Of a DNA stretch of 64,000 bases, positions 1 to 57,975 are shown piece after piece; position 1 is the stretch's first letter; the number at the start of each line of letters is the position of its first letter. The position numbers and the translations under genes were made by a program. The DNA is taken from the NCBI GenBank assembly GCA_002049455.2, contig KV918769.1, positions 541,090 to 605,089 of the forward strand, given 5' to 3'. Below the pieces are notes generated by a model, which made no database searches, was not told the origin of the DNA, and saw nothing but the letters and a program-made list of their open reading frames with translations. This DNA is from Porphyra umbilicalis (taxonomy: Eukaryota; Rhodophyta; Bangiophyceae; Bangiales; Bangiaceae).

Positions 1-977
1 GCGATTACAGTGATCACGATAACATGCGTTCGGAGGGATTTCAAGGGATAATGCATCGGGAAAAAAGAAGAAAACGGCTGCCCTACACGCGGCAGAGCCG
101 CCATTGACACCTCTGATGCCCTGGATGTGCGTATGACATTCTGCCGCCAGTGGGGCGTACCATGCATGACGTGCCAGTGCGATAAGGGACAGCACCAACT
201 TGATCCCGCGCGGCGCACGACGGCTGCAAACGTATCGCTGCATCCCCAAGAGACATTCTAGCGCGATGGCGCGGCGTGCAGAGCCCCGGAGAAGCCACTG
301 GAGCCGCAAACAGGTGCAATAGTTTGCGATAGTTTGCGATAGTTGGTAATAATTGGGATGGCAGTGCCCCGAGGCGGGCCACCTTCCCCGCCCGCCTGTG
401 CCATGCGCGAGCACCCGCGCGGCTGCCATACACGCGGTAGAGCCGCCATTGACACCTCTGACGCCCTGGATGTACGTATGACATTCTGCCGCCGGTGGGG
501 CGTGCCATGCATGACGTGCCAGTGCGATAACGGACAGCACCAACTTGCTCCCGCGCGGCGCACGACGGCTGCAAACGTATCGCTGCATCCCCAAGAGACA
601 TTCCCGCGCGATGGCGCGGCGTGCAGAGCCCCGGGGAAGCCACTGGAGGCGCAAACAGGTGCGATAGTTTGCGATAGTTTGCGATAGTTGGTAATAATTG
701 GGATGGCAGTGCCCCGAGGCGGGCCACCTTCCCCGCCCGCCTGTGCCATGCGCGAGCACCCGCGCGGCTGCCCTACACGCGGCAGAGCCGCCATTGACAC
801 CTCCGATGCCCTGGATGTACGTATGACATTCTGCCGCCGGTGGGGCGTGCCATGCATGACGTGCCAGTGCGGTAAGGGACAGCACCAACTTGCTCCCGCG
901 CGGCGCACGACGGCTGCAAACGTATCGCTGCATCCCCAAGAGACATTCCCGCGCGATGGCGCGGCGTGCAGAGCCCC
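1..977. repeat. 345-bp satellite array, left block
   Basis: Almost three tandem copies of a 345-bp unit. Each unit carries a short AT-rich patch with three near-copies of the 10-mer gatagtttgc followed by taataattgg, then a GC-rich body. The copies differ at scattered sites and carry the 'atgcatgacgtgcc' variant found also in the 11246-16162 block. The block is cut by an N at 978, where the satellite stops in mid-unit; this is an assembly join and not a natural boundary. I see no gene in it. Because 345 is a multiple of three, long open frames run through the array, but they are a property of the repeat. Confidence 0.95.
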
Positions 978-978
978 N
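978..978. other. Assembly join (single N)
   Basis: One ambiguous base separates satellite sequence on the left from unique coding-like sequence on the right. The chromovirus on the right lacks its 3' LTR, which should lie here, so the join probably hides at least that LTR (about 652 bp by comparison with the 5' copy) and the end of a satellite unit. Confidence 0.9.
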
Positions 979-3097
979 CGGCTCATCCCCACGACGCCGG
1001 CGGGGCCGCTGCCGTGTGGCGGGCCTTCAAGGAGTTCGCTAAGGTGGCGGGGTACGGCACCCGGCCGGCGGCCGAGCGCGACTTTGCTTCCTTCGTCCGC
1101 TCCGTTGGGGACAGCGCGGCGTGGCTACGCTGCATGTTGCGGTGGAACCCGGGTCGGGTGCTCTTGGTCCCGCATCCCGCGGCCGAGCTCCCGTTCGTCG
1201 CCGGCGAGGAGGAGTACGCCTACCTCGAGGATTGGCACACCCGCCTTCGCCACCGCCCTGCGGTCCCGTTCGGTCACTCCTTGGCGCTCGCCAACTTCGG
1301 GGGTGTGGGCCCCCTGATCGCCTTGGCGTCGGTGGGCCCCGCGACCGCCCCGGCGGACTTGGCGTTGGAGGCCGCGCGCCGCGCGCGCGGCGAGCTCGTA
1401 AGCGCCCGACGGGCGGGGCACGGGGCCATCTTCCTGTCCGTCCGCTCCGGCATCGCCTTGACGCCGGCGCGTGCTCCCTTGCCGCCGGCAATGGCCACGC
1501 GGTGCGCGACGCCGCGGCTGCTGACGTACGAGTACCCGCCCGTCGTGCACCAGCAGCAGTCGCTGCTTCAGGCGTTCCCGTGCCACCCTATCCAGGGCAC
1601 GGCCTACGTCATGCTGACGGCCGCCATCGTGTCGGGGTTGCTGCGTGCATTCCGCGAGACGCACCGCGTCTTCGAGCCGTCGCCGTGCTACTACGACTTG
1701 ACGCGGAAGTTCAAGGTCGACGACCTCGCGCCGGGCGACAGCGGTGCCGCCGACGCCCTTGAGGAGTACGATGCCATCGTGAGGGCTGTGCCCTGGGCGG
1801 CAGTCCATGACCTGCTGCCCTACCACCACGACACCACTCGTCAAGCCCCCAGCACCCTGCTGCCCCACCAAGTGGGTACTGTGGCGGACGGCCGGTGCCA
1901 CTACGTTCGCGTCGTGAACGTCTTGCGGACGCCGCAGACCCCGTTGGGGGTCATGCTCGCGGAGCCGCGGCTCGCGGACGTCGCCCCGCGGGCACTGCCC
2001 GTAACGACGGAGCCTTGGGCGATACCGGCCGGCTTCACTTCGCCCGACCCGGACGCCGTCCCGCCGTCGACGAGGGAGGCGGCCGCGTCGGCCGCGTACC
2101 GCGCGCGGAAGCGGCGCCACGCCGACATGGCGCGCGGCGGCCCGGCTCCGCCTGTACCCCACCACCCGGGGCCCCGGGACCCCGAGGGGGAGGAGGAGGA
2201 GGTCAGCGCCGGCGACCCCGGGGGTCCCGACGCCTACTCCCGCGGCTTCTCCTCGTCGACCCGTGTCGGCAATGCCGAGTGGGGCCCGCGAGAGGCGGGC
2301 CGCGAGGACCGAGCCGGCACGGCTCATGGCGAGCGCTGGGACGCGACGTGGCGCGGCGACCGCGCCGACACTGCCGGTGACCGGCCCGGGCGCGGGTGGG
2401 CGTCCGAGTCGGGCGGCGGCGCCGCTCGCCCCCGTCGCGACCACGACGACCGCTGGGGGGACGGCGGCCACGGCCGCCGTGCCGACGTGCGGGACGACCG
2501 CGTGTGGTCGGCGGCCGGTCCGGGTGACGGCCGCGGCTGTATGGCCGACGGCCGTGACGGGCCCGCGTGGCCCTCCGACGGCGGCCAGGGCCGCGACGGC
2601 GCCGCTAGCGGCTGGGGCTACGGGCGGTCCGAGTACCGCCCCGCCGGCGAAGCCGCGGCGCCCGCCGGTCCGCGCCCCGCGCGTTGGGATGCCGCCCCCG
2701 CCAGCGACGGTCCCGGCGGGGCGCCGATGGAGCTCGGGGTTGCCGGTCCCATCGTGACCCCCGTTCCGGGGCAACCGGACGTCGCCCACGATTGGTGGCT
2801 GTCCGCGTCGTGGACGCCCCCTACCCCGGTGACGGCCACGGAGTGGCGGACGCGCTGACGTCCGGGCAGGTTGTCGCCTTGTTCGGGTACGACCCGTCCA
2901 TCAACTGGTCCGAGGTGGGGCCGTGCGAGATCACCGCCGCGATGGTCGAGTACGCCCGCATCGGGCTCGCCGCCGACGTCCCCCCCTGCCTGGAGCCCCC
3001 GCGGACGCGGGCGAAGCGGTTCCACGCCGCCCTGCGGCGCGTCCTACGCAAGGCGGGTCGCCCCGTTCACGTATGGGAGTTTCGTCGCCGCGACTGA
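979..3097 (+). CDS. Unrecognised protein, 5'-truncated, one frame change; antisense to the chromovirus
   Basis: An open frame runs from the N join to a TGA at 2856-2858 and gives about 625 residues. The first ~370 look globular (many W, F, Y, H and P, for example VWRAFKEFAKVAGYG and LLTYEYPPVVHQQQ). The next ~240 are low-complexity and rich in R, G and D. Near 2760-2858 coding character passes to a second frame that ends at 3095-3097 with a compact segment including ALFGYDPSINWSEVGP. This suggests one indel, or a frameshift, near the end of one gene. The start is missing beyond the N. I do not recognise the family. It lies between pol and the expected 3' LTR, antisense to gag-pol. Antisense ORFs at this place are known in some plant gypsy elements, so it may be an accessory retroelement ORF; it could instead be an unrelated host gene. 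Confidence 0.5.
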
Positions 3098-3193
3098 GGG
3101 CATCGCCCTGGCCCGTAGGTGTGGCGCTTAGTCCGACGGCGTTCGGTCGTCTGCCGCCGTAGAATACAGCCGTGGGCTTGTCCTTAGTCCCAC

Positions 3194-6100
3194 TCAGCGT
3201 CCGCGGCCCGTTGTGGCCCCGCCACGTCTTGGCATATCCCCCAAAAACCCCAGAAAAACCCATCCCCCCCCCCGCCGCGTCCGGCCACCGCGCCGACCCA
3301 AGGGGTCAGGCACGGATGGCCGGGGGCGGCGCGGCGGCGCCGCCCAGGCGGCGCCGCCGTCGGGAGCCGAGGCTTGCGGGGCCGCCGGCCGCGGGTCGGC
3401 GGACGTGTGGGGCAGCCCCAGGCGCGCGGCGCGGCGCAGGTAGACGCGCAGCGTCTCGTGCGGGGCGTCCGCGGCGTCCATCCAGGTGGGCTGCGGGTAT
3501 CCGGTCCAGTAGACCTGGACCCGGAGGGTGCCGTCGGGCAGCGTCGCGTGGTCCGCGATGCGGTCCACGGCATACCGCTGGCCGTCGGCCTCCGCCCCGT
3601 GGAAGGAGCGCGCGGCCCGCAACGCGGGGTGTTGGGCAGGGGATGCGGCGGCCGTGCCCGAGGCGCGGACGACGTGCGCCACGTTCTCCCGTCGGTGCTC
3701 CCCGTCCACGTCCAGGAGGACCGTCGGGCCGTCCGTGGAAACCACGCGATACGGTCCGCGGGCGACGTGCGTCAGTTTGCCGCCGGCGCCCTCCTCCTTG
3801 GCGTGGTCACGCAGCCACGCGCAGCCCCCCACGGTGAGCTTCTCCGCGCGCAGCGCGAGGCGCTTGTCGTGGTCGCGCTTGTAGCGCCCCTGCGTGGCCT
3901 TTAGCGTTGCCTGCATCTGCGGGATGAGCTGAACGAGGCGGGTCAGCAGGGAGGCTTGCGCGCGCTTCTCGGCGGCGGTGCCGCGTTGCGCCGTGATGGG
4001 GTACGCCCCGGACTTCGGGATGTCCTTGAAAGCCCAGCTGGATACCCCCATGGGGTTGACCAGTTCCAGCGGGGCAACCCCGGTGCTACGGTGGGGGCGG
4101 CTGTTGTACGCCAGCGTCAGGGCCCCAAGGAGTTGGTCCCAGGACCGCGGATGCTCCGCCACGTAGTGGTTCAGGATCGTATGCATCGTGCGGTTGAACC
4201 GCTCCGTCTGCCCGTTCGTCTGCGGGTGTGACGGTGACGTCACCTTAGGCTCGATGGAGAGCAGGTTGCAAACCTAGCCCCAGAAGTGGCTCGTGAACTG
4301 GGGTCCCCCGTCCGAGAGCAGTCGGTCCGGCGGACCATAAGCGCCCACCCAGTAGTCCAGGACGGCCGAGGCGCAGTCCACCGCCGACGTACCGTCCATC
4401 GGGATGGCGCGCACCAGCTTGGTGAACCGGTCGGTGATCACCAGGATGAATCGATGGCCGGCGGCCGTTCGGTCGAGGGGCCCGTAGAGGTCCACAGCAA
4501 TGTCCTGGAAGGGCATGGTGGCGGGGAACAGGGTCAGGGGCGAGCGCCGTGCCAGCGGGCGCACGCGCTGCCGGGCACAGCTGTCGCATTTCCTAACATA
4601 GGAGACGACGTCGGCCGCCATGCCCACCCAGTAGTAGTACCGCCGCATCGCCGCATACATGCGGGATTCCCCGGGGTGCCCGGCGAGGGTCGCGTCGTGC
4701 TCCAGGTGGAGGACCTGCTCCTGCAAGGAGGTCGGGACCACCACCTGGTGGGCGCCATCGGGCGCCGCGCGTCGCCGGAGGACCCCATCGGGATCCTCGA
4801 AGAACGGGATGCGCCGCCCGTCATTCAGGGCTTTCACGATCTCCTTGCAGTACCCGTCGTCGGCTTGGGCCGCGAGCACCGCGTCGCGGTTGATGCCCCG
4901 GACCGTTGGGCCGCCAACGTAGTTGGCGGCGTCGAGCCCCCGGACCGTGTTGGCTCGCACGGCGAAGACAGGGACCGCGTCGTCGAACGCGGTCTCATCG
5001 CTGGCCCCGGACTCCAGGCGGGAGATGCTGTCGGCCATGTAGTGTGTCATCCCCGGCTTGTAGGCGACGTCAAACTCCAACTCGCTGAGGCGAAGGCGCC
5101 AGCGCGCCAAGCGGGGATTCCCCGAACCCTCAATGTTGAGGATCCACCGTAGGCAGTCGTGGTCCGTGCGCACAAGGAAACGATCACCCTCGAGGTAGGG
5201 GCGGAGCTTGAGCGACGCCCAGACGACTGCCAGGCACTCCTTCTCCGTGACCCCGTAGGGAAGCTCGTTCGTCGCCAGCCGCCGGCTGATGTACGCGACC
5301 GGCTTGAGTTTCCCGTCGTCTTGCTCCTGCAGCAGGGCGGCGCCCACCTGCGTCCCGCAGGCATCTACGTCGAGGACGTACTTCCGCCCGCGCCGCGGGA
5401 GTGCGAGGACCGGCGGGGTCGTGAGGGCCTCCTTGAGCCGGTCGAACGCCTGCTGCTGCAATGGCGTGGCAGGGGGCACCAGGACGGGGGCCGTGGACCC
5501 CATGAGGTCCGTCAATGGCGCTGCCATCCTTGCGAAGTTCGGCACGAACCGGCGGAAGACGTTGCACATCCCCACGAAGCTCCGCACTTGCGTGCGGGTC
5601 GTGGGGAAGTGCGCCTCGCGCAAGGCGCGCGTGTGCGCGTCCATCACACCGAGCCGGCCCGGCTTGATTTCATGCCCGAGGTATTCCACGGTCTTTCGAA
5701 AGAACCGGCACTTGGGCAGGCGGAGTGTCACTCCCGCGTCGCGAAGCAGGCGCAGAACGCGGTCGACGTGGCCGACGTGCTCCTCCTCCGTCTTGGAGTA
5801 CACGATGACATCGTCGAGGTAGATAAGGCAGCTTTGCCACTTCACGCCGGAGAGGATGATGTCCAGCGCCCGCTGGAACGTGGCCGGGGCGTTCGTTAGG
5901 CCGAACGGCATCTGTTTGTACTGGTACGCGCCCTCGTGGCACATGAAAGCCGTCTTCTCCCGATCTTCGGGTGCGATGGCAACCTGCCAGTAGCCGGCGT
6001 TGCAATCCAACGTCGAGAAGATGGTCGCCTCACCGAGGCTGTCGATGCATTCGTCCATTCGGGGCAGCGGGTACGAATCCTTCTTGGTGACGACGTTCAG

Positions 6101-7741
6101 CAGTCGATAATCGTCGCAGAAGCGGAGGGTGCCATCCTTCTTGGGGACGAGCACGACCGGGAAGCCCCATTCCGACGACGTCGGTTCGATGACGTCCGCC
6201 TCCAGCTGCCGCTTGACCTCGGCCGTCTCGGCCTCCCGCGCCGTGTGCCCAGCACGGCGCGGTGCGAAGCGGACGGGCCGGGCGCCGGCGTTGAGGTCGA
6301 TGCGGTGCTGGGTGGCTTTGATGACGCCGAGCGCCTGGCCCGTCCACATTGCCTTGTGCTGGTCCAGCATGCGGCGGATCCGGGTGTGCAGCGTCGGGTC
6401 GACGTCCGGCAGGTCCACGTCCTCCACTTGCGGGGGGGACGCGGGTGGCGCCGCGTTCGCCAGGGCGCTTTCTTCGCCCGGGTCCCGGGGTCGCGCGGGG
6501 GTCGCAGCCGTACCGCCTGAGGCCGTCGCTGGGTCCGGGCTCCGCCCCGGCGCGGGGTCGTCTCCGGTGCTTGACACCGCCGCCACGACGCCTTCGGCGG
6601 CTGTGGCCGGCGGGAAGGCCGCGGCGGCCGGTGTACCGGGAGGTGCCCCGGGGGGCACTTGTACGACCCCTGTCGTCAGCAGCTCAACGTAGCCGACGTT
6701 GGCCTTCTGCCGGAGGATGACCTCGCGCGCGCCAAAGTTGGTCACGATGACCGGAAAAGATAGCCCTGGCACGATATCGTGTACGCCGTTGGCGATGGTG
6801 ACCCCGTGCGTTGTGAAGAGGCGCGAGGCGCCGAATACCTGACCCAGGCCGCCCCACATGGTCCGCACCCAGACGACCGTGGCCGCCGACGGCGGAAGCC
6901 GCGTCTTGTGCGTCGCACGGAGGACGCAGGAGACGCCCATCGAGCGGTCGCCATCATCCAACGGTCCCCGTAGGATCGCCGTGACGGACCCGTCCGTCCA
7001 ACGGATGGACCTATCCTGAGGCAGGATGGCGTGGGCGTTGTCGTCGATGAACGTGCAGCCCAAGATGACCGGGACCGACAGGTCGTCGACGACGAGGAAG
7101 GGGACCGGGACGATCCGTGCGCCCGTCTGGAGCCACAGCGTGACGGTCCCGCTAGTGCGTAACCGTGCGTTGTTGGCGTCTCGCAGACGTACCTGTTCCT
7201 CCTTCTTAGAGGTGACCACCTGGCGGAGCCAGTCAGGAGCGAGGGCGTCCCGGCGGACCAAGTTGGGGCCCGCCCCCGTGTCGACGACGACGCCGAACGC
7301 GCGGAGGGCCAGCTTGTCCAGCCCCAGAGAGGCCACGATACGGTAGTAATGCAGGCTGAAGAGCAGCACTTCCCCGTTCCGGGGCGGGGTACCCGGCGCG
7401 TGCGTGGGGTCCGCGACGGCGGCGGCGTGCCGGAGAAAGCGGGTACGTTCGCGCCGGGCGCGTCCCCCGAGGCGCCGCCGGGGCCCTGGCCCGGTGCGCG
7501 CCCCGTTGGCGGGTCGCGCGAGGATGCGGGGGCAGAAGGCGGGCGCCGGCGGGAATCCCGCAGCGGCCCGCCGCTTGCGTACCTGGCGCAGGCGGGTCGC
7601 CGTGATGTAGCAGTGCCGGTGTGCCTTGAGACGGACGACGTCCGTGGGCAGCCCACTAAGGGGGCTGCCCCTTACTCGTTTCCCTGGGCGTGGCAGGGGC
7701 GGCCGTTCCCACGACTCGCGCCGTCGGCGCCCGCGATCCAC
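3194..7741 (-). pseudogene. pol: Chromovirus pol polyprotein with in-frame amber stop
   Basis: The frame opens at 7741, overlapping the end of gag by about 70 bases in a different frame, as is common in gag-pol elements that use frameshifting. In order: aspartic protease with DTGAGPN (around residue 154), reverse transcriptase with the YLDD active site (about residue 641, near 5810-5820), RNase H with LDVDACGTQVGAAL and RTDHDCLRWI, and integrase with an HHCC-type finger (about 4590-4690) and a DDE core whose first two Asp lie near 4480 and 4313. A TAG at 4274-4276 interrupts the core. The same frame continues to 3194 and holds the last catalytic Glu (NGQTERFN, near 4200), the integrase C-terminal region and a chromodomain (about 3440-3570, with YWTGYPQPTW). 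The C-terminal tail is Pro/Arg-rich. Apart from the TAG the frame is intact over 4.5 kb, so the copy is young or the stop is a base-call error. Confidence 0.93.
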
Positions 7742-10444
7742 TCCTCGGAGGAGCTCTCCCCCTCGTCGCCCCTTACGTCCGGGTACGCCCGGTCATCCGT
7801 TTCCACGGCGTGGACGAAGACAGCCGTGCCCGGCGGGACGGTCCCATGGTTGGCGCCGGTCGGCGGTACCGGTGGAACCGGCGGTCCCGTACCCAGGGGC
7901 AGGGGTGCCGGCGGAGCCGGTCCCCGCCCGTTACGGTGTGCCGCGACTGCTTCGCGCAGCGCGCGCCCGTGGGCCCGCACCTCGGGAGACTGGGCGGGGC
8001 ACTTCCACACCCAGTGCCCCAGGTGGCCACAGAACGAGCAGGCCCCCCGCCGACGTGGCGCGGGCCCCGCCTCGGGTGCCCCACTCCATCCGCCGCCACG
8101 CGGTGGAGGCGCCCCGCCTCGAAGAAACCGCGGGGGGCGATCCGAGTGCGGGAAGACGCTTCCCGGCCGTGGAGGCACCGGGCTGCCCGGCGCCAGGGTA
8201 CCGCGCCCACGCCCCGCCCCCGTATGCACGGGGTACAACTCCGGGCGCCCGCCCCACGCGGGCTGCTGTTGCCAGCCCGACGCGTGCGGGAGACTGTCCA
8301 CCGGTAGTACCGGGACGTCGCCCGAGGACCCATACTCACCGGGCGTCCCCGACGCGGCGAACACCGCGGCCCACTCGGCCCGCTCCGCCTCGGTCCCGTA
8401 GTCCGTGACGGACAGAGCAGCCGCGGCCGAGGCGGCTCTCACCGGGAGAGCGACGGATGCCGCCGGCCGGGCCCGACGGGCCTCCCGTTCTTCGCCGCCG
8501 ACCGACCGGGAGGCGCTCCCCTTGGGCTTGGCTTGGAGCTTGACCCCCCGGGCCTCCCGGGTAGCTGCTCCCGTGTTGGCAAGGAACTTGCGCAGCTTGG
8601 GGGAGGTCCGGCCCTGGGTATTGAAGTTCCGCCCCAGGGCCCGGACTTCCCGTCCAACGCCCTTGAGTAGGATACTCTTCAGCTCGGCCTCTTGTAGGAC
8701 CGAGCCCAAGGCACGGTTAGCATCGAGGATGCGGTTCGCAAACTCGTGTTCGTCTTCCCACTTCTCTTGGGATGCTTGCATGAGGGCCTGGAGGTGGTCC
8801 ACCAGGTCGTCCCCGTCGAGGTTCTCGTTGAGTAGAGCGTGGACCGCGCGCTTGTACGTGAGCTGCCGCGAGGCGTGGGTGTCCTTGGCGCGCTTGAGCA
8901 CGCCGAGCACCTCGCTCGTGACGAAGTACTGCAGCAGTGTCACTGCCGTCCCCTCGTTCAGCCCGCTGCCGTCGCATGCCGTCTGGAAGTTCCCAAGGAA
9001 CGCCACCAACCCCAACGGGGTATCGCCCGCAAACTGCCGCGAGGTGTGCATCAAGGCCTTGACGTCCGCGCGGATACCGCGGATGGAATTGCCTCGCGGG
9101 AGGTGTAGGCGGCCCCCTCGCTGTGCGAGTCGGTACCGTTCCGGCGACAGGAGCCCCTTGAAGCGGGGGTCGACCACCGTGTCCTCCCGCTGCTCCCGCC
9201 GGAAGGCGCGCAGCGCCTCTTGAACCAGGGCCCGGTGTGGCTGCTTGTCGGCAGCCCGTGCCCGCCGTCGGCGGCGCGCTGCGCCGGGGTCACTGCCGGT
9301 GGCGGAGGAAGAGGTCGAGCCGTCGCTGCTGTCCGTCGACTCCGCCCTACTGGCGGCGGACGACGAGCTTGACGGACTGTCGTCGCTCTCGGTCGACGAG
9401 GGGGGCCCCGACGAGGGGGCGACGGCGCCCGTCGGGCGTGGCGCCGCCGTCGGTGGCCCTTCGAGGGGGCGGCCTTCAGGTGTCGGCGCTCGGCGCCCCG
9501 CCGGGACCGAGACCGCGCAGGGCGCGCGCCCGGCGATGCAGTCACCGTCAAGGCGGCCCCGGTCCGGGTTGTGCCCCCCGTCCGGGTATGCTCCCTCAAC
9601 GTGCCTGACCCGGGTTCCGGGGGTGCCGGCCCCCCCGCGCTCGCGGTTCCGGGGGAAGGGCCCTGGGCCGCCGTCAGGGCCAGGGCCACGGCCGCGCCCC
9701 GCCCCGGGACCGGGGTCCCGTCCGAGGCCGCGGTCGACGCTTCCTCCGCGGCGTCGCGGAACACCTGAGCCAAGTGGCGTAGGTGCCCGGGGTCGGCCAC
9801 CGACCGAGGTGGTCCTGGGGCCGCGGCTCCGCCGATCCCCTGCAGGCTGGGCCCCGACCCGCCCGTCGCCGACGGCGCGTCCAGGGACCAGTGGTCCCGG
9901 GTGGTCCTCTGCCACCGGGCCCGGGCCACCTCCTCCGGGGTGACCCCGAACGCCCGCTGTAATTCCCGGCGCTGCCGCTCGTCCTCCTCGAGCGGCAGCG
10001 CGTCCATTGGTCGACGCGGCCCCCGGCTCGCGGGGGTCCCGCCAACTACAGTTCCCGATGAACCGCCCACCGCGTCCACTCGGGGAGGGCCAAAGGGCGG
10101 CGCCCCTTCCAGGCGCTGCCCGTCAGGGGGGAAGGGTGAACCCCCGCACCCCCTGCATGAGGCTCCATCAGCGTGGACGTCCGTCCCGCGCCGGGACGAG
10201 GACGAGCCCCGGTGGTCGGCGTGCGGCCGGGGTCCTCGGGCGGGGAGTTCGACTCACCCGCCACCGTACCGCCGCCGCCAACCGGGACCGCCCTTCCACC
10301 CCCCACAGGGGCCACGGCGCCCAAGGCCGGTGTTGCCCCGGGGTCTCCCGCCGGTGGCGCGTCCGTCACCCGGCTGATGCCAGGCATCTCAAACGGAGGA
10401 GCGCCCCCGTCGAGCGGGGAAGGTGAGGAAGATCCGCGAGCCAT
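7672..10444 (-). pseudogene. gag: Chromovirus gag with zinc knuckle, two frame changes
   Basis: A plausible start is the ATG at 10442-10444 (MARGSSSPSPLDGG). Coding character then moves between three frames: one ending at 10046, a second from about 10079 (MDALPLEEDERQRRELQRAFG in part) to roughly 9.5 kb, and a third ending at 7672. The third frame holds a Ser-rich linker, a helical capsid-like region (about 9200-8600) and a nucleocapsid CCHC knuckle, CSFCGHLGHWVWKC, near 7996-8040, with C-x2-C-x4-H-x4-C spacing. Gag packages element RNA into cytoplasmic particles. The two breaks lie in GC-rich runs and may be consensus indels. The exact start is uncertain. Confidence 0.8.
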
Positions 10445-10573
10445 GGAAGCGGGGCCCGCGTATCGATCGGATGTCCTCCTGTCACCGCACCGCAATAGAA
10501 CCAACGAGGGTCCCCCGAATCTTGGTACCGAAAGAGGTGTCGATCCGCGACGCGCACAGTGTGCGTACCGCGA

Positions 10574-10591
10574 GTCTCACCCGGAGCGCCA
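10574..10591 (-). promoter_or_regulatory. Chromovirus primer binding site
   Basis: On the element strand TGGCGCTCCGGGTGAGAC begins two bases after the LTR end. Its complement reads as a proper tRNA 3' end: seven acceptor bases, a discriminator G and CCA, preceded by a T-stem and a TTCGAGT-like T-loop continuation. Minus-strand DNA synthesis would be primed here by that tRNA. It is not the initiator-Met-type site (TGGTATCAGAG) common in plant elements. The exact tRNA was not identified. Confidence 0.8.
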
Positions 10592-10593
10592 AA

Positions 10594-11245
10594 TGTAGTA
10601 CCACAATCTAGGGGGTTACCTCAGAAGGAGGGAAGTAACGGCCGTCTCAGCCGCTCGCGTGACACCCGCTATGGGACTCGAGGTCCGGGAAGTCGGGCCG
10701 ATCGAAACGCCAAGACATCGAGACACGGTTTACTTGCCGGCGACGACGGTGCCTCCCACCGTCGTCGCCCTTCGTCCTAAAAGGGCGGAAACCGTCGCCC
10801 GGGCCCAATTTCCCCAAATGGGAATTGACCCGGGCCGTCACCAACCAATGCAGATAATTCCCTCCATGCACGTCAAGTCCCCCGAGGCGATCGTTACAGA
10901 CGAGGGGGAGAAACCGTCCCGCGCGCAACGCGCTGCACCCGCCGCGTGGCGCCCGGTCGGCCGTCGCCTGCCGCGCCCTCTCGGGCGCGCCAGCGCCCGC
11001 TCGGGCGCGCCAACCCGGGCCTCCCGCGGGGCCCGCGTGCCGGGCGCGGCGGATCGGGTGCGCTCCCTCAAGGGGCCCGAGCCGGGCAGCGGGGCCGCCC
11101 CCTCGCCCCGCCATCCCGCGTCGCCAACCCGTCGGCCACCACCGCCGCTGGCGTCGCCCCCACGCGTCGGGGACCGACGTCCCCCGCCGTCGCCGTCGTC
11201 CCCGCGGTGGCCCCCTGGCGCCTAGGGGGGCCCCGTGGTACTACA
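10594..11245 (-). repeat. Chromovirus 5' LTR (652 bp)
   Basis: Bounded by an 11-base inverted terminal repeat, TGTAGTACCAC at 10594 and GTGGTACTACA ending at 11245, so it starts TG and ends CA on either strand. It is followed inside by the primer binding site and flanked outside by satellite. It should hold the element promoter and polyadenylation signals; I could not place them with confidence. No second copy occurs in the window. Confidence 0.88.
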
Positions 11246-14200
11246 ATAGTTTGCGATAGTTTGCGATAGTTGGTAATAATTGGGATGGCAGTGCCCCGAG
11301 GCGGGCCACCTTCCCCGCCCGCCTGTGCCATGCGCGAGCACCCGCACGGCTGCCCTACACGCGGCAGAGCCGCCATTGACACCTCTGACGCCCTGGATGT
11401 ACGTATGACGTTCTGCCGCCGGTGGGGCGTGCCATGCATGACGTGCCAGTGCGATAAGGGACAGCACCACTTGCTCCCGCGCGGCGCACGACGGCTGCAA
11501 ACGTATCGCTGCATCCCCAAGAGACATTCCCGCGCGATGGCGCGGCGTGCAGAGCCCCGGGGAAGCCACTGGAGCCGCAAACAGGTGCGATAGTTTGCGA
11601 TAGTTTGCGACAGTTGGTAATAATTGGGATGGCAGTGCCCCGAGGCGGGCCACCTTCCCCGCCCGCCTGTGCCATGCGCGAGCACCCGCGCGGCTGCCCT
11701 ACACGCGGCAGAGCCGCCATTGACACCTCTGACGCCCTGGATGTACGTATGACATTCTGCCGCCGGTGGGGCGTGCCATGCATGACGTGCCAGTGCGATA
11801 AGGGACAGCACCAACTTGCTCCCGCGCGGCGCACGACGGCTGCAACGTATCGCTGCATCCCAAGAGACATTCCCGCGCGATGGCGCGGCGTGCAGAGCCC
11901 CGGGGAAGCCACTGGAGCCGCAAACAGGTGCGATAGTTTGCGATAGTTTGCGATAGTTGGTAATAATTGGGATGGCAGTGCCCCGAGGCGGGCCACCTTC
12001 CCCGCCCGCCTGTGCCATGCGCGAGCACCCGCACGGCTGCCCTACACGCGGCAGAGCCGCCATTGACACCTCTGACGCCCTGGATGTACGTATGACATTC
12101 TGCCGCCGGTGGGGCGTGCCATGCATGACGTGCCAGTGCGATAAGGGACAGCACCAACTTGCTCCCGCGCGGCGCACGACGGCTGCAAACGTATCGCTGC
12201 ATCCCCAAGAGACATTCCCGCGCGATGGCGCGGCGTGCAGAGCCCCGGGGAAGCCACTGGAGCCGCAAACAGGTGCGATAGTTTGCGATAGTTTGCGATA
12301 GTTGGTAATAATTGGGATGGCAGTGCCCCGAGGCGGGCCACCTTCCCCGCCCGCCTGTGCCATGCGCGAGCACCCGCGCGGCTGCCCTACACGCGGCAGA
12401 GCCGCCATTGACACCTCTGACGCCCTGGATGTACGTATGACATTCTGCCGCCGGTGGGGCGTGCCATGCATGACGTGCCAGTGCGATAAGGGACAGCACC
12501 AACTTGCTCCCGCGCGGCGCACGACGGCTGCAAACGTATCGCTGCATCCCCAAGAGACATTCCCGCGCGATGGCGCGGCGTGCAGAGCCCCGGGGAAGCC
12601 ACTGGAGCCGCAAACAGGTGCGATAGTTTGCGATAGTTTGCGATAGTTGGTAATAATTGGGATGGCAGTGCCCCGAGGCGGGCCACCTTCCCCGCCCGCC
12701 TGTGCCATGCGCGAGCACCCGCGCGGCTGCCCTACACGCGGCAGAGCCGCCATTGACACCTCTGACGCCCTGGATGTACGTATGACATTCTGCCGCCGGT
12801 GGGGCGTGCCATGCATGACGTGCCAGTGCGATAAGGGACAGCACCAACTTGCTCCCGCGCGGCGCACGACGGCTGCAAACGTATCGCTGCATCCCCAAGA
12901 GACATTCCCGCGCGATGGCGCGGCGTGCAGAGCCCCGGGGAAGCCACTGGAGCCGCAAACAGGTGCGATAGTTTGCGATAGTTTGCGATAGTTGGTAATA
13001 ATTGGGATGGCAGTGCCCCGAGGCGGGCCACCTTCCCCGCCCGCCTGTGCCATGCGCGAGCACCCGCGCGGCTGCCCTACACGCGGCAGAGCCGCCATTG
13101 ACACCTCTGACGCCCTGGATGTACGTATGACATTCTGCCGCCGGTGGGGCGTGCCATGCATGACGTGCCAGTGCGATAAGGGACAGCACCAACTTGCTCC
13201 CGCGCGGCGCACGACGGCTGCAAACGTATCGCTGCATCCCCAAGAGACATTCCCGCGCGATGGCGCGGCGTGCAGAGCCCCGGGGAAGCCACTGGAGCCG
13301 CAAACAGGTGCGATAGTTTGCGATAGTTTGCGATAGTTGGTAATAATTGGGATGGCAGTGCCCCGAGGCGGGCCACCTTCCCCGCCCGCCTGTGCCATGC
13401 GCGAGCACCCGCGCGGCTGCCCTACACGCGGCAGAGCCGCCATTGACACCTCTGACGCCCTGGATGTACGTATGACATTCTGCCGCCGGTGGGGCGTGCC
13501 ATGCATGACGTGCCAGTGCGATAAGGGACAGCACCAACTTGCTCCCGCGCGGCGCACGACGGCTGCAAACGTATCGCTGCATCCCCAAGAGACATTCCCG
13601 CGCGATGGCGCGGCGTGCAGAGCCCCGGGGAAGCCACTGGAGCCGCAAACAGGTGCGATAGTTTGCGATAGTTTGCGATAGTTGGTAATAATTGGGATGG
13701 CAGTGCCCCGAGGCGGGCCACCTTCCCCGCCCGCCTGTGCCATGCGCGAGCACCCGCGCGGCTGCCCTACACGCGGCAGAGCCGCCATTGACACCTCTGA
13801 CGCCCTGGATGTACGTATGACATTCTGCCGCCGGTGGGGCGTGCCATGCATGACGTGCCAGTGCGATAAGGGACAGCACCAACTTGCTCCCGCGCGGCGC
13901 ACGACGGCTGCAAACGTATCGCTGCATCCCCAAGAGACATTCCCGCGCGATGGCGCGGCGTGCAGAGCCCCGGGGAAGCCACTGGAGCCGCAAACAGGTG
14001 CGATAGTTTGCGATAGTTTGCGATAGTTGGTAATAATTGGGATGGCAGTGCCCCGAGGCGGGCCACCTTCCCCGCCCGCCTGTGCCATGCGCGAGCACCC
14101 GCGCGGCTGCCCTACACGCGGCAGAGCCGCCATTGACACCTCTGACGCCCTGGATGTACGTATGACATTCTGCCGCCGGTGGGGCGTGCCATGCATGACG

Positions 14201-16162
14201 TGCCAGTGCGATAAGGGACAGCACCAACTTGCTCCCGCGCGGCGCACGACGGCTGCAAACGTATCGCTGCATCCCCAAGAGACATTCCCGCGCGATGGCG
14301 CGGCGTGCAGAGCCCCGGGGAAGCCACTGGAGCCGCAAACAGGTGCGATAGTTTGCGATAGTTTGCGATAGTTGGTAATAATTGGGATGGCAGTGCCCCG
14401 AGGCGGGCCACCTTCCCCGCCCGCCTGTGCCATGCGCGAGCACCCGCGCGGCTGCCCTACACGCGGCAGAGCCGCCATTGACACCTCTGACGCCCTGGAT
14501 GTACGTATGACATTCTGCCGCCGGTGGGGCGTGCCATGCATGACGTGCCAGTGCGATAAGGGACAGCACCAACTTGCTCCCGCGCGGCGCACGACGGCTG
14601 CAAACGTATCGCTGCATCCCCAAGAGACATTCCCGCGCGATGGCGCGGCGTGCAGAGCCCCGGGGAAGCCACTGGAGCCGCAAACAGGTGCGATAGTTTG
14701 CGATAGTTTGCGATAGTTGGTAATAATTGGGATGGCAGTGCCCCGAGGCGGGCCACCTTCCCCGCCCGCCTGTGCCATGCGCGAGCACCCGCGCGGCTGC
14801 CCTACACGCGGCAGAGCCGCCATTGACACCTCTGACGCCCTGGATGTACGTATGACATTCTGCCGCCGGTGGGGCGTGCCATGCATGACGTGCCAGTGCG
14901 ATAAGGGACAGCACCAACTTGCTCCCGCGCGGCGCACGACGGCTGCAAACGTATCGCTGCATCCCCAAGAGACATTCCCGCGCGATGGCGCGGCGTGCAG
15001 AGCCCCGGGGAAGCCACTGGAGCCGCAAACAGGTGCGATAGTTTGCGATAGTTTGCGATAGTTGGTAATAATTGGGATGGCAGTGCCCCGAGGCGGGCCA
15101 CCTTCCCCGCCCGCCTGTGCCATGCGCGAGCACCCGCGCGGCTGCCCTACACGCGGCAGAGCCGCCATTGACACCTCTGACGCCCTGGATGTACGTATGA
15201 CATTCTGCCGCCGGTGGGGCGTGCCATGCATGACGTGCCAGTGCGATAAGGGACAGCACCAACTTGCTCCCGCGCGGCGCACGACGGCTGCAAACGTATC
15301 GCTGCATCCCCAAGAGACATTCCCGCGCGATGGCGCGGCGTGCAGAGCCCCGGGGAAGCCACTGGAGCCGCAAACAGGTGCGATAGTTTGCGATAGTTTG
15401 CGATAGTTGGTAATAATTGGGATGGCAGTGCCCCGAGGCGGGCCACCTTCCCCGCCCGCCTGTGCCATGCGCGAGCACCCGCGCGGCTGCCCTACACGCG
15501 GCAGAGCCGCCATTGACACCTCTGACGCCCTGGATGTACGTATGACATTCTGCCGCCGGTGGGGCGTGCCATGCATGACGTGCCAGTGCGATAAGGGACA
15601 GCACCAACTTGCTCCCGCGCGGCGCACGACGGCTGCAAACGTATCGCTGCATCCCCAAGAGACATTCCCGCGCGATGGCGCGGCGTGCAGAGCCCCGGGG
15701 AAGCCACTGGAGCCGCAAACAGGTGCGATAGTTTGCGATAGTTTGCGATAGTTGGTAATAATTGGGATGGCAGTGCCCCGAGGCGGGCCACCTTCCCCGC
15801 CCGCCTGTGCCATGCGCGAGCACCCGCGCGGCTGCCCTACACGCGGCAGAGCCGCCATTGACACCTCTGACGCCCTGGATGTACGTATGACATTCTGCCG
15901 CCGGTGGGGCGTGCCATGCATGACGTGCCAGTGCGATAAGGCAGCACCAACTTGCTCCCGCGCGGCGCACGACGGCTGCAAACGTATCGCTGCATCCCAA
16001 GAGACATTCCCGCGCGATGGCGGCGTGCAGGCCCGGGGAGCATGGAGCCGCACAGGTGCGATGTGCGATAGTGCGATAGTTGGAAAAGGATGCAGTGCCC
16101 CGAGCGGGCACCTTGCCCGCTGTGCCATGCGCGAGCACCCGCGCGGCTGCCCAGAGCCCCGG
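11246..16162. repeat. 345-bp satellite array, middle block (about 14 copies)
   Basis: Tandem 345-bp units between the chromovirus and the copia element. Units from 12302 to 15751 (ten full copies) look identical base for base, and the flanking copies carry a few substitutions or 1-bp deletions. All carry the 'atgcatgacgtgcc' variant. The last ~220 bases (about 15940-16162) lose many single bases and one longer segment. Two of the three minus-strand frames have no stop across the array, which creates apparent 1600-1769-residue ORFs; these are repeat artefacts unless expression is shown. Confidence 0.97.
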
Positions 16163-21105: not shown

Positions 21106-24100
21106 CGGGAAGCCACTGGAGCCGCAAACAGGTGCGATAGTTTGCGATAGTTTGCGATAGTTGGTAATAATTGGGATGGCAGTGCCCCGAGCGGGCCACC
21201 TTCCCCGCCCGCCTGTGCCATGCGCGAGCACCCGCGCGGCTGCCCTACACGCGGCAGAGCCGCCATTGACACCTCTGACGCCCTGGATGTACGTATGACA
21301 TTCTGCCGCCGGTGGGGCGTGCCATGCATGGCGTGCCAGTGCGATAAGGGACAGCACCAGCTTGCTCCCGTCCGGCGCACGACGGCTGCAAACGTATCGG
21401 TGCATCCCCAAGAGACATTCCCGCGCGATGGCGCGGCGTGCAGAGCCCCGGGGAAGCCACTGGAGCCGCAAACAGGTGCGATAGTTTGCGATAGTTTGCG
21501 ATAGTTGGTAATAATTGGGATGGCAGTGCCCCGAGGCGAGCCACCTTCCCCGCCCGCCTGTGCCATGCGCGAGCACCCGCGCGGCTGCCCTACACGCGGC
21601 AGAGCCGCCATTGACACCTCTGACGCCCTGGATGTACGTATGACATTCTGCCGCCGGTGGGGCGTGCCATGCATGGCGTGCCAGTGCGATAAGGGACAGC
21701 ACCAGCTTGCTCCCGTGCGGCGCACGACGGCTGCAAACGTATCGCTGCATCCCCAAGAGACATTCCCGCGCGATGGCGCGGCGTGCAGAGCCCCGGGGAA
21801 GCCACTGGAGCCGCAAACAGGTGCGATAGTTTGCGATAGTTTGCGATAGTTGGTAATAATTGGGATGGCAGTGCCCCGAGGCGGGCCACCTTTCCCGCCC
21901 GCCTGTGCCATGCGCGAGCACCCGCGCGGCTGCCCTACACGCGGCAGAGCCGCCATTGACACCTCTGACGCCCTGGATGTACGTATGACATTCTGCCGCC
22001 GGTGGGGCGTGCCATGCATGGCGTGCCAGTGCGATAAGGGACAGCACCAACTTGCTCCCGCGCGGCGCACGACGGCTGCAAACGTATCGCTGCATCCCCA
22101 AGAGACATTCCCGCGCGATGGCGCGGCGTGCAGAGCCCCGGGGAAGCCACTGGAGCCGCAAACAGGTGCGATAGTTTGCGATAGTTTGCGATAGTTGGTA
22201 ATAATTGGGATGGCAGTGCCCCGAGGCGGGCCACCTTCCCCGCCCGCCGTGCCATGCGCGAGCACCCGCGCGGCTGCCCTACACGCGGCAGAGCCGCCAT
22301 TGACACCTCTGACGCCCTGGATGTACGTATGACATTCTGCCGCCGGTGGGGCGTGCCATGCATGGCGTGCCAGTGCGATAAGGGACAGCACCAGCTTGCT
22401 CCCGTGCGGCGCACGACGGCTGCAAACGTATCGCTGCATCCCCAAGAGACATTCCCGCGCGATGGCGCGGCGTGCAGAGCCCCGGGGAAGCCACTGGAGC
22501 CGCAAACAGGTGCGATAGTTTGCGATAGTTTGCGATAGTTGGTAATAATTGGGATGGCAGTGCCCCGAGGCGGGCCACCTTCCCCGCCCGCCTGTGCCAT
22601 GCGCGAGCACCCGCGCGGCTGCCCTACACGCGGCAGAGCCGCCATTGACACCTCTGACGCCCTGGATGTACGTATGACATTCTGCCGCAGGTGGGGCGTG
22701 CCATGCATGGCGTGCCAGTGCGATAAGGGACAGCACCAACTTGCTCCCACGCGGCGCACGACGGCTGCAAACGTATCGCTGCATCCCCAAGAGACATTCC
22801 CGCGCGATGGCGCGGCGTGCAGAGCCCCGGGGAAGCCACTGGAGCCGCAAACAGGTGCGATAGTTTGCGATAGTTTGCGATAGTTGGTAATAATTGGGAT
22901 GGCAGTGCCCCGAGGCGGGCCACCTTCCCCGCCCGCCCGTGCCATGCGCGAGCACCCGCGCGGCTGCCCTACACGCGGCAGAGCCGCCATTGACACCTCT
23001 GACGCCCTGGATGTACGTATGACATTCTGCCGCCGGTGGGGCGTGCCATGCATGGCGTGCCAGTGCGATAAGGGACAGCACCAGCTTGCTCCCGTGCGGC
23101 GCACGACGGCTGCAAACGTATCGCTGCATCCCCAAGAGATATTCCCGCGCGATGGCGCGGCGTGCAGAGCCCCGGGGAAGCCACTGGAGCCGCAAACAGG
23201 TGCGATAGTTTGCGATAGTTTGCGATAGTTGGTAATAATTGGGATGGCAGTGCCCCGAGGCGGGCCACCTTCCCCGCCCGCCTGTGCCATGCGCGAGCAC
23301 CCGCGCGGCTGCCCTACACGCGGCAGAGCCGCCATTGACACCTCTGACGCCCTGGATGTACGTATGACATTCTGCCGCCGGTGGGGCGTGCCATGCATGG
23401 CGTGCCAGTGCGATAAGGGACAGCACCAGCTTGCTCCCGTGCGGCGCACGACGGCTGCAAACGTATCGCTGCATCCCCAAGAGACATTCCCGCGCGATGG
23501 CGCGGCGTTCAGAGCCCCGGGCAAGCCACTGGAGCCGCAAACAGGTGCGATAGTTTGCGATAGTTTGCGATAGTTGGTAATAATTGGGATGGCAGTGCCC
23601 CGAGGCGAGCCACCTTCCCCGCCCGCCTGTGCCATGCGCAAGCACCCGCGCGGCTGCCCTACACGCGGCAGAGCCGCCATTGACACCTCTGACGCCCTGG
23701 ATGTACGTATGACATTCTGCCGCCGGTGGGGCGTGCCATGCATGGCGTGCCAGTGCGATAAGGGACAGCACCAGCTTGCTCCCGTGCGGCGCACGACGGC
23801 TGCAAACGTATCGCTGCATCCCCAAGAGACATTCCCGCGCGATGGCGCGGCGTGCAGAGCCCCGGGGAAGCCACTGGAGCCGCAAACAGGTGCGATAGTT
23901 TGCGATAGTTTGCGATAGTTGGTAATAATTGGGATGGCAGTGCCCCGAGGCGGGCCACCTTTCCCGCCCGCCTGTGCCATGCGCGAGCACCCGCGCGGCT
24001 GCCCTACACGCGGCAGAGCCGCCATTGACACCTCTGACGCCCTGGATGTACGTATGACATTCTGCCGCCGGTGGGGCGTGCCATGCATGGCGTGCCAGTG

Positions 24101-27100
24101 CGATAAGGGACAGCACCAACTTGCTCCCGCGCGGCGCACGACGGCTGCAAAAGTATCGCTGCATCCCCAAGAGACATTCCCGCGCGATGGCGCGGCGTGC
24201 AGAGCCCCGGGGAAGCCACTGGAGCCGCAAACAGGTGCGATAGTTTGCGATAGTTTGCGATAGTTGGTAATAATTGGGATGGCAGTGCCCCGAGGCGGGC
24301 CACCTTCCCCGCCCGCCTGTGCCATGCGCGAGCACCCGCGCGGCTGCCCTACACGCGGCAGAGCCGCCATTGACACCTCTGACGCCCTGGATGTACGTAT
24401 GACATTCTGCCGCCGGTGGGGCGTGCCATGCATGGCGTGCCAGTGCGATAAGGGACAGCACCAGCTTGCTCCCGTGCGGCGCACGACGGCTGCAAACGTA
24501 TCGCTGCATCCCCAAGAGACATTCCCGCGCGATGGCGAGGCGTGCAGAGCCCCGGGGAAGCCACTGGAGCCGCAAACAGGTGCGATAGTTTGCGATAGTT
24601 TGCGATAGTTGGTAATAATTGGGATGGCAGTGCCCCGAGGCGGGCCACCTTCCCCGCCCGCCTGTGCCATGCGCGAGCACCCGCGCGGCTGCCCTACACG
24701 CGGCAGAGCCGCCATTGACACCTCTGACGCCCTGGATGTACGTATGACATTCTGCCGCCGGTGGGGCGTGCCATGCATGGCGTGCCAGTGCTATAAGGGA
24801 CAGCACCAACTTGCTCCCGTGCGGCGCACGACGACTGCAAACGTATCGCTGCATCCCCAAGAGATATTCCCGCGCGATGGCGCGGCGTGCAGAGCCCCGG
24901 GGAAGCCACTGGAGCCGCAAACAGGTGCGATAGTTTGCGATAGTTTGCGATAGTTGGTAATAATTGGGATGGCAGTGCCCCGAGGCGGGCCACCTTCCCC
25001 GCCCGCCTGTGCCATGCGCGAGCACCCGCGCGGCTGCCCTACACGCGGCAGAGCCGCCATTGACACCTCTGACGCCCTGGATGTACGTATGACATTCTGC
25101 CGCCGGTGGGGCGTGCCATGCATGGCGTGCCAGTGCGATAAGGGACAGCACCAGCTTGCTCCCGTGCGGCGCACGACGGCTGCAAACGTATCGCTGCATC
25201 CCCAAGAGACATTCCCGCGCGATGGCGAGGCGTGCAGAGCCCCGGGGAAGCCACTGGAGCCGCAAACAGGTGCGATAGTTTGCGATAGTTTGCGATAGTT
25301 GGTAATAATTGGGATGGCAGTGCCCCGAGGCGGGCCACCTTCCCCGCCCGCCTGTGCCATGCGCGAGCACCCGCGCGGCTGCCCTACACGCGGCAGAGCC
25401 GCCATTGACACCTCTGACGCCCTGGATGTACGTATGACATTCTGCCGCCGGTGGGGCGTGCCATGCATGGCGTGCCAGTGCTATAAGGGACAGCACCAAC
25501 TTGCTCCCGTGCGGCGCACGACGGCTGCAAACGTATCGCTGCATCCCCAAGAGATATTCCCGCGCGATGGCGCGGCGTGCAGAGCCCCGGGGAAGCCACT
25601 GGAGCCGCAAACAGGTGCGATAGTTTGCGATAGTTTGCGATAGTTGGTAATAATTGGGATGGCAGTGCCCCGAGGCGGGCCACCTTCCCCGCCCGCCTGT
25701 GCCATGCGCGAGCACCCGCGCGGCTGCCCTACACGCGGCAGAGCCGCCATTGACACCTCTGACGCCCTGGATGTACGTATGACATTCTGCCGCCGGTGGG
25801 GCGTGCCATGCATGGCGTGCCAGTGCGATAAGGGACAGCACCAGCTTGCTCCCGTGCGGCGCACCACGGTTGCAAACGTATCGCTACATCCCAAGAGACA
25901 TTCCCGCGCGATGGCGCGGCGTGCAGAGCCCCGGGGAAGCCACTGGAGCCGCAAACAGGTGCGATAGTTTGCGATAGTTTGCGATAGTTGGTAATAATTG
26001 GGATGGCAGTGCCCCGAGGCGGGCCACCTTCCCCGCCCGCCTGTGCCATGCGCGAGCACCCGCGCGGCTGCCCTACACGCGGCAGAGCCGCCATTGACAC
26101 CTCTGACGCCCTGGATTACGTATGACATTCTGCCGCCGGTGGGGCGTGCCATGCATGGCGTGCCAGTGCGATAAGGGACAGCACCAACTTGCTCCCGCGC
26201 GGCGCACGACGGCTGCAAACGTATCGGTGCATCCCCAAGAGACATTCCCGCGCGATGGCGCGGCGTGCAGAGCCCCGGGGAAGCCACTGGAGCCGCAAAC
26301 AGGTGCGATAGTTTGCGATAGTTTGCGATAGTTGGTAATAATTGGGATGGCAGTGCCCCGAGGCGAGCCACCTTCCCCGCCCGCCTGTGCCATGCGCGAG
26401 CACCCGCGCGGCTGCCCTACACGCGGCAGAGCCGCCATTGACACCTCTGACGCCCTGGATGACGTATGACATTCTGCCGCCGGTGGGGCGTGCCATGCAT
26501 GGCGTGCCAGTGCGATAAGGGACAGCACCAGCTTGCTCCCGTGCGGCGCACAACGGTTGCAAACGTATCGCTACATCCCAAAGAGACATTCCCGCGCGAT
26601 GGCGCGGCGTGCAGAGCCCCGGGGAAGCCACTGGAGCCGCAAACAGGTGCGATAGTTTGCGATAGTTTGCGATAGTTGGTAATAATTGGGATGGCAGTGC
26701 CCCGAGGCGGGCCACCTTCCCCGCCCGCCTGTGCCATGCGCGAGCACCCGCGCGGCTGCCCTACACGCGGCAGAGCCGCCATTGACACCTCTGACGCCCT
26801 GGATGTACGTATGACATTCTGCCGCAGGTGGGGCGTGCCATGCATGGCGTGCCAGTGCGATAAGGGACAGCACCAACTTGCTCCCGCGCGGCGCACGACG
26901 GCTGCAAACGTATTTCTGCATCCCAAAGAGACATTCCCGCGCGATGGCGCGGCGTTCAGAGCCCCGGGGAAGCCACTGGAGCCGCAAACAGGTGCGATAG
27001 TTTGCGATAGTTTGCGATAGTTGGTAATAATTGGGATGGCAGTGCCCCGAGGCGGGCCACCTTCCCCGCCCGCCTGTGCCATGCGCGAGCACCCGCGCGG

Positions 27101-28933
27101 CTGCCCTACACGCGGCAGAGCCGCCATTGACACCTCTGACGCCCTGGATGTACGTATGACATTCTGCCGCAGGTGGGGCGTGCCATGCATGGCGTGCCAG
27201 TGCGATAAGGGACAGCGCCAACTTGCTCCCGCGCGGCGCACGACGGCTGCAAACGTATTGCTGCATCCCAAAGAGACATTCCCGCGCGATGGCGCGGCGT
27301 GCAGAGCCCCGGGGAAGCCACTGGAGCCGCAAACAGGTGCGATAGTTTGCGATAGTTTGCGATAGTTGGTAATAATTGGGATGGCAGTGCCCCGAGGCGG
27401 GCCACCTTCCCCGCCCGCCTGTGCCATGCGCGAGCACCCGCGCGGCTGCCCTACACGCGGCAGAGCCGCCATTGACACCTCTGACGCCCTGGATGTACGT
27501 ATGACATTCTGCCGCCGGTGGGGCGTGCCATGCATGGCGTGCCAGTGCTATAAGGGACAGCACCAACTTGCTCCCGTGCGGCGCACGACGACTGCAAACG
27601 TATCGCTGCATCCCCAAGAGATATTCCCGCGCGATGGCGCGGCGTGCAGAGCCCCGGGGAAGCCACTGGAGCCGCAAACAGGTGCGATAGTTTGCGATAG
27701 TTTGCGATAGTTGGTAATAATTGGGATGGCAGTGCCCCGAGGCGGGCCACCTTCCCCGCCCGCCTGTGCCATGCGCTAGCACCCACGCAGCTGCCCTACA
27801 CGCGGCAGAGCCGCCATTGACACATCTGACGCCCTGGATGTACGTATGATTTTCTGCCGCCGGTGGGGCGTGCCATGCATGACGTGCCATGCATGGCGTG
27901 CCAGTGCGATAAGGGACAGCATCAACTTGCTCCCGCGCGGCGCACGACGGCTGCAAACGTATCGCTGCATCCCCAAGAGACACTCCCGCGCGATGGCGCG
28001 GCGTGCAGAGCCCCGGGGAAGCCACTGGAGCCGCAAACAGGTGCGATAGTTTGCGATAGTTTGCGATAGTTGGTAATAATTGGGATGGCAGTGCCCCGAA
28101 GCGGGCCACCTTCCCCGCCCGCCTGTGCCATGCGCAAGCACCCGCGCGGCTGCCCTACACGCGGCAGAGCCGCCATTGACACCTCTGACGCCCTGGATGT
28201 ACGTATGACATTCTGCCGCAGGTGGGGCGTGCCATGCATGGCGTGCCAGTGCGATAAGGGACAGCACCAGCTTGCTCCCGCGCGGCGCACGACGGCTGCA
28301 AACGTATCGCTGCATCCCCAAGAGATATTCCCGCGCGATGGCGCGGCGTGCAGAGCCCCGGGGAAGCCACTGGAGCCGCAAACAGGTGCGATAGTTTGCG
28401 ATAGTTTGCGATAGTTGGTAATAATTGGGATGGCAGTGCCCCGAGGCGGGCCACCTTCCCCGCCCGCCTGTGCCATGCGCGAGCACCCGCGCGGCTGCCC
28501 TACACGCGGCAGAGCCGCCATTGACACCTCTGACGCCCTGGATGTACGTATGACATTCTGCCGCCGGTGGGGTGTGCCATGCATGGCGTGCCAGTGCGAT
28601 AAGGGACAGCACCAACTTGCTCCCGCGCGGCGCACGACGGCTGCAAAAGTATCGCTGCATCCCCAAGAGACATTCCCGCGCGATGGCGCGGCGTTCAGAG
28701 CCCCGGGCAAGCCACTGGAGCCGCAAACAGGTGCGATAGTTTGCGATAGTTTGCGATAGTTGGTAATAATTGGGATGGCAGTGCCCCGAGGCGAGCCACC
28801 TTCCCCGCCCGCCTGTGCCATGCGCGAGCACCCGCGCGGCTGCCCTACACGCGGCAGAGCCGCCATTGACACCTCTGACGCCCTGGATGTACGTATGACA
28901 TTCTGCCGCCGGTGGGGCGTGCCATGCATGGCG
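21106..28933. repeat. 345-bp satellite array, right block (about 22.7 copies)
   Basis: Same 345-bp unit as the other blocks, but nearly every copy carries 'atgcatggcgtgcc' where the left and middle blocks have 'atgcatgacgtgcc'. Copies are more varied than in the middle block and show higher-order patterns: a 690-bp pair at 24264-24953 is repeated at 24954-25643. The final copy is cut at gccatgcatggcgt (28933), where unique sequence begins. No gene is supported. Confidence 0.96.
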
Positions 28934-57974: not shown

Positions 57975-57975
57975 N
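57975..57975. other. Assembly join (single N)
   Basis: An N in ttttcccNcaccc. As at 978 it probably marks a scaffold join, so contiguity across it should not be assumed. Confidence 0.85.

Follow-up and report, generated by a model that had tools for sequence, protein, structure and literature searches.

Does the long open reading frame on the plus strand at positions 979 to 3150 of this locus belong to the LTR retrotransposon beside it, and is it a gene? The locus was analyzed as a 64,000-nucleotide stretch of the Porphyra umbilicalis genome (contig KV918769.1, positions 541,090 to 605,089 of the forward strand), hereafter referred to as the window. A preliminary description had placed the ORF, antisense to pol, inside the element, provided that the element is whole, and had suggested that it perhaps encodes a new accessory factor.

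The retrotransposon lies on the minus strand of the window and is embedded in a 345-bp satellite, which flanks it on both sides. Satellite arrays occupy positions 75-977, 11246-16152, and 21107-28934, with the retrotransposon inside and matches within arrays of 96-99%. The 5' LTR (10594-11245, minus strand; 652 bp, TGTAGTACCAC...GTGGTACTACA) is the only LTR of this element in the window. Two bases from it is a putative primer-binding site, assigned by sequence (10570-10591, minus strand; TGGCGCTCCGGGTGAGAC...), and this PBS-like site was nearly identical in the 12 copies that have both LTR ends. A search of the genome with one pattern found no matching tRNA gene. The gag open frame, measured from stop to stop, spans 7672-10122 (minus strand) and has a CX2CX4HX4C knuckle, read by eye; it matched no Pfam gag family at its cut-off. 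The main part of pol (4274-7792, minus strand) encodes a protease-like motif, also read by eye, then reverse transcriptase, RNase H, and the integrase zinc finger and core, with Pfam matches to RVT_1 (6.5e-35), RT_RNaseH, and Integrase_H2C2, and with rve below its cut-off. Stops in this part of pol were each confined to one copy among the 22 compared. An in-frame stop at 4271-4273, in the integrase of the window copy, separates this part from the last part of pol (3194-4273, minus strand), which encodes the integrase C-terminal part (PF13683, E 1.4e-6) and a weak chromodomain-like tail (PF00385, E 0.11). No Rfam family reached its gathering threshold in window 900-11300.

LTRs, a target duplication, and RT-RNase H ahead of integrase identify the element as Ty3/gypsy-type. 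The narrower label of chromovirus, given in the preliminary description, is unproven because the chromodomain-like tail scored 12.9 bits in the window copy against a Pfam cut-off of 25.1, and a second copy, L005, gave no PF00385 match at E ≤ 0.1.

As the preliminary description had stated, no LTR lies between the end of pol and a single N at position 978. The LTR edge was located 477-505 bp upstream of the equivalent of window position 979 in 28 of 29 other copies and was displaced in L004. The N at 978 is an assembly gap that, judged from the other copies, stands for roughly 1.2 kb. By comparison with these copies, the gap hides a little satellite, the 3' LTR (~650 bp), and ~480 bp containing the first 156 codons of the ORF, so that the ORF starts upstream, behind the gap, and not at 979. 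Each of the 29 other copies that were fetched (L002-L030) had an LTR past the start of the ORF, whole or nearly whole in 27 and partial in L004 and L026. For 12 copies, the loci fetched included both LTR ends, with 98.1-100% identity between LTRs, and in each of these 12 the ORF was within both LTRs. Exact 5-bp target duplications were found outside the LTRs in 10 of the 12, with one mismatch in L012 and no determination for L022. The LTRs beyond the ORF start, together with the 5-bp duplications, place the ORF inside a recently mobile element, as had been proposed.

In the window, a plus-strand open frame extends from 876 to 2858 (660 amino acids stop-to-stop, passing through the N) and is followed by a second frame that ends at a stop codon at 3095-3097. 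The gene is a single frame of 861 codons (protein P0001) in uninterrupted copies. When this protein was matched to the window by tblastn, residues 157-779 fell at 981-2849 (98% identity) and residues 780-861 at 2849-3094 (100% identity), with the stop codon bringing the second part to 3097. The C-terminus "in a shifted frame" of the preliminary description is, judged by these alignments, a frameshift near 2849 that is a defect of the window copy and not a feature of the gene. Fourteen of 55 scored genome-wide protein matches covered residues 1-861 without a stop, and one covered 1-860. The ATG was kept in 28 of 29 copies, with G at -3 in 28 of 29, and the stop codon was TGA in 29 of 30. The spacer between LTR and ATG comprises 15 bases and contains a short polypurine run on the sense strand of the element, and the ORF converges with pol. 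The protein consists of a Pro/Ala-rich N-terminus (residues 1-133), a conserved core (134-520), a basic motif, RKRRH (532-536), a G/A/R/D-rich middle (561-745), and a conserved C-terminal domain (746-861).

The genome (83.8 Mb, 665 contigs) has 11 matches to the phycobilisome family (PF00502), 10 of them on contig C665, which points to a red alga. We searched it with window 979-3193, and 40 of 111 candidates were scored; their identity was 90-100%, with near-full query coverage in 36 and partial coverage in four. Because an ORF-seeded search cannot reveal copies that lack the ORF, a second search was seeded with the end of pol only (window 3400-4273). Among the best 40 of 150 candidates, the C-terminal part of the ORF lay within 700 bp of the pol end, in the expected place and on the expected strand, in 35, and 1.1-11.4 kb away in four (C103, C247, C200, and C9:398169). 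One pol end (C124:50543) had no ORF; this copy is broken inside pol, and the 1.5 kb that follow contain no LTR. Copies with an LTR right after pol, which would speak against membership of the ORF in the element, were not seen among these 40 pol ends, with most of the sequence that separates pol from the ORF in the four distant-ORF copies unread. Nor was the ORF found alone as a host gene in any of the 29 other copies fetched, all of which have an LTR. In a complementary set of 40 5' ends found via LTR-side DNA, 28 had the C-terminal part of the ORF no more than 25 kb away on the same strand; of the remaining 12, five are close to a contig end (within 3 kb), and seven have no explanation. Two 5' ends on contig C247 (25357-26468 and 32556-33671) lie on opposite strands at a distance of ~6 kb, lack an ORF match nearby, and are perhaps a rearranged or nested pair.

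These distributions bear on the origin of the ORF, which could be a host gene or another mobile element that was captured by, or inserted into, the region between pol and the LTR. No homologue of the protein was found, and a capture far back in time is possible. Its occurrence in the same place at 35 of the 40 pol ends scored from the 150, and again in a diverged lineage described below, together with the LTR in 29 of 29 other ORF copies, makes capture improbable.

Long open frames are common in GC-rich DNA, and the antisense frame might be an accident of such sequence, or a mirror of a frame on the other strand, with no protein made. Stops were counted in all six frames of 28 copies, with L001 and L004 dropped, in the register of L005 and with indels ignored. 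The antisense frame contained 15 stops in total and none in 20 copies, whereas each of the other five frames, the mirror frame included, contained 74-461 stops and was stop-free in none of the 28 copies. We then compared nonsynonymous to synonymous changes (N/S) with expectation. Across 30 copies, the ratio for changes shared by at least two copies was 0.43 for the ORF as a whole, 0.19 for the core (residues ~156-520), and 0.59-0.62 for the other three parts (Pro-rich, G/A/R/D-rich, and C-terminal); singleton changes gave 1.05. This codon-level comparison among copies had been suggested in the preliminary description. In pol, used as a control with 22 copies (without L014, L015, L016, L018, L020, L021, L023, and L030), the ratio was 0.23 for shared changes and 0.72 for singletons. 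Frames of the LTR, analyzed without L001, L004, and L026, gave 0.91-1.14 for shared changes in four frames, and 0.76 and 1.52 in the other two.

The mirror frame, that is, the minus frame whose third positions coincide with those of the ORF, came close to the plus frame, with 0.47 over the ORF, and was slightly lower in two of the four parts (0.56 versus 0.59 in the Pro-rich part and 0.53 versus 0.62 in the G/A/R/D-rich part). For the whole ORF and for the core, where the mirror frame had 0.28, the plus frame nevertheless had the lowest ratio, and it is the core and the stops that tell the two frames apart. With start and stop codons conserved and protein-level similarity to a diverged lineage as well, an accidental or mirrored frame is extremely improbable. 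Short indels gave no support for coding: 13 of 16 distinct ones, and one of two shared ones, were not multiples of three. In many copies (L005, L014, and others), the antisense frame also continues without a stop across much of the LTR. An N-terminal extension of the ORF into the LTR was rejected, with some doubt, because shared LTR changes in that frame are unconstrained (1.14); singletons there gave 0.66.

The timing of constraint was examined on a tree of 29 copies, without L001. Internal branches carried 84 synonymous and 69 nonsynonymous changes and no stops, a ratio to expectation of 0.30 (p ~3e-13, treating sites as independent and taking the expectation from a simple substitution spectrum). 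In the core (residues 134-520), internal branches had 44 synonymous and 11 nonsynonymous changes (ratio 0.09), and the ratio in the C-terminal part was 0.33. At the tips, the ratio was 0.97, with 16 stops versus 23 expected. A ratio of 0.30 on internal branches against 0.97 with stops at the tips is the pattern expected if the protein matters during multiplication and copies decay after landing. The protein was thus constrained while copies multiplied, and evolution after insertion was neutral. Pairwise dN/dS between L005 and L030 was 0.07-0.18 in the core, and L005 and L014 gave 1.67 in residues 561-745 and 0.55 in 381-520. The overall value was 0.44 for L005 and the more distant L061. Another relative, L062 (C140), leaves the ORF frame partway, and its pairwise values beyond about residue 480 were discarded.

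Taken together, the ORF is almost certainly a selected gene of the element. Since selection has kept this gene intact, the element probably needs the antisense protein to spread. It has been proposed for other antisense ORFs that the antisense RNA is the functional product, controlling the element through dsRNA or siRNA (PMC7264820), in which case the protein would be incidental. The constraint observed here falls on amino acids, and in the core, third positions account for 50 of the 69 shared changes. An RNA product in place of the protein is therefore disfavored already and very improbable, while an RNA role beside the protein is compatible with the data.

What the protein does was approached through its sequence features. 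Consistent with its preliminary description as unrecognized, profile searches matched it to no family in Pfam, NCBIfam, or PHROGs; at E ≤ 10, Pfam gave no family for any of five antisense proteins. Neither single-sequence nor profile searches of the PDB found a sequence match. AlphaFold2 gave no usable model from single sequences (pLDDT 33.8 and 47.2). The suggested RNA-binding activity has little to stand on, because the middle region is net acidic, with 24 K+R and 32 D+E in residues 561-745. The RKRRH motif, which we take to be NLS-like, is kept in L005 and L030 and partly in L061. No membrane-like stretch was detected, the highest 19-residue Kyte-Doolittle mean being 1.51.

The location of the gene raises the question of whether the protein, instead of being nuclear, has a structural role, associates with the particle, or serves cell-to-cell passage as an env-like factor. 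Env-like genes are found in the interval between pol and the 3' LTR (PMC7264820), and a compartment other than the nucleus is compatible with the data. An env-like protein would be encoded in sense orientation, however, whereas this one is antisense, has no membrane-like stretch, and carries a basic motif. We consider such a factor unlikely.

Diverged relatives of the gene were found within the same genome. L061 (C216) is ~62% identical to the protein over its full length, but contains stops. Its C-terminal 223 codons had 99 matches in the genome, of which the least alike (33%) is on contig C307. There, the pol end has stretches 59% and 85% identical to that of the window, and an antisense frame lies beyond it on the other strand. 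This frame is 38% identical to the 861-amino-acid protein in the C-terminal domain and 40% identical in an upstream stretch, with a basic motif between them, and none of the other matches was of its kind. About 45 codons in frame with the diverged ORF (L064 ~1463-1599), covering about the first 45 codons of the C307 frame, match a dispersed repeat that occurs at many genome sites, mostly with stops. L065 (C16) matched well in the C-terminal part only (73% over 113 residues) and was left out of further comparisons. Outside the source genome, no relative was found in phage records or in viral contigs. The sole hit in bacterial genomes (L063), a match of ~30 residues in a frame that appeared glycosyltransferase-like by eye, was rejected as chance. 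Records near the window's genome are possibly missing from the collections searched.

Antisense ORFs in this position are known from other hosts. The aORF-3R class comprises additional ORFs that lie in antisense orientation between pol and the 3' LTR, including gene23 of maize Grande and ORFs of rice RIRE2, Silene Retand, bean PvRetro13, and Botrytis Boty (PMC7264820); the ORF of Boty, brtn, is also treated in PMC8365987. According to the account in PMC7264820, these ORFs are present in most copies and conserved, their function is unsettled, and a nuclear location is reported for the Grande protein. The preliminary description had mentioned a few plant gypsy lineages, which holds, and Botrytis extends the class beyond plants. 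The Porphyra ORF shares with this class its antisense orientation to gag-pol, its place inside the element between pol and the 3' LTR, its conservation, and its retention in most copies. It differs in its host, a red alga, in a start codon that nearly abuts the LTR, and in a protein that lacks both TRP28 and SMC. TRP28 (PF04195) was not found by Pfam in any of the five antisense proteins; the survey described in PMC11963269 found Retand elements, which carry TRP28 antisense ORFs, in eudicots and Liliopsida only. Deltaretroviruses also have antisense genes, such as HBZ of HTLV-1 (PMC7264820 and PMC11963269). Both genes are antisense and oriented to be read from the 3' LTR side, with no known homology between them; a nuclear product is an analogy, and what is seen here is the closeness of ATG and LTR. 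A figure in PMC2864245 shows an "additional ORF" of unsettled function for some elements, with its strand unstated. In the open-access literature, we found no report of an antisense ORF of this kind in red algae. With an antisense retrotransposon protein unrelated to those known, this red alga adds a third eukaryotic lineage to an established class so far represented by flowering plants and one fungus.

A nuclear role, in regulation or in integration, is conceivable from the analogy with antisense proteins treated in PMC7264820 and PMC11963269, and we hold it tentatively. Antisense activity of the 3' LTR would promote an mRNA whose first ATG is that of the ORF, and the RKRRH motif would take the protein into the nucleus. 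The conserved core and C-terminal domain may target host chromatin or the nucleic acid of the element itself and so aid expression, nuclear entry, or integration of the element. The Pro-rich N-terminus and G/A/R/D-rich middle would be fast-evolving linkers. As a whole, an antisense accessory gene of a Ty3/gypsy-type element with such a nuclear mechanism is the account that we favor with moderate confidence. A broader proposal is likewise speculative: that a 3'-LTR-driven antisense gene of red algal gypsy-type elements evolved independently of those of plants, fungi, and deltaretroviruses, that it encodes a new family of nuclear proteins that the element needs in trans for its own expression or integration, and that it is old enough to occur in lineages with only ~38% identity between the C-terminal domains of their antisense proteins.

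Selection on the protein during multiplication, ceasing after insertion, argues that such genes are useful to their elements and are not passengers. The borders of the protein are defined, copies have nearly identical LTRs, and the genome is small, which makes this system suited to testing that role. Elsewhere in the window, a second single N at 57975 is probably another assembly gap, and short GC-rich repeats occur in tandem at 43843-44554 and 60834-61549, their periods being 19 and 37-56 bp.
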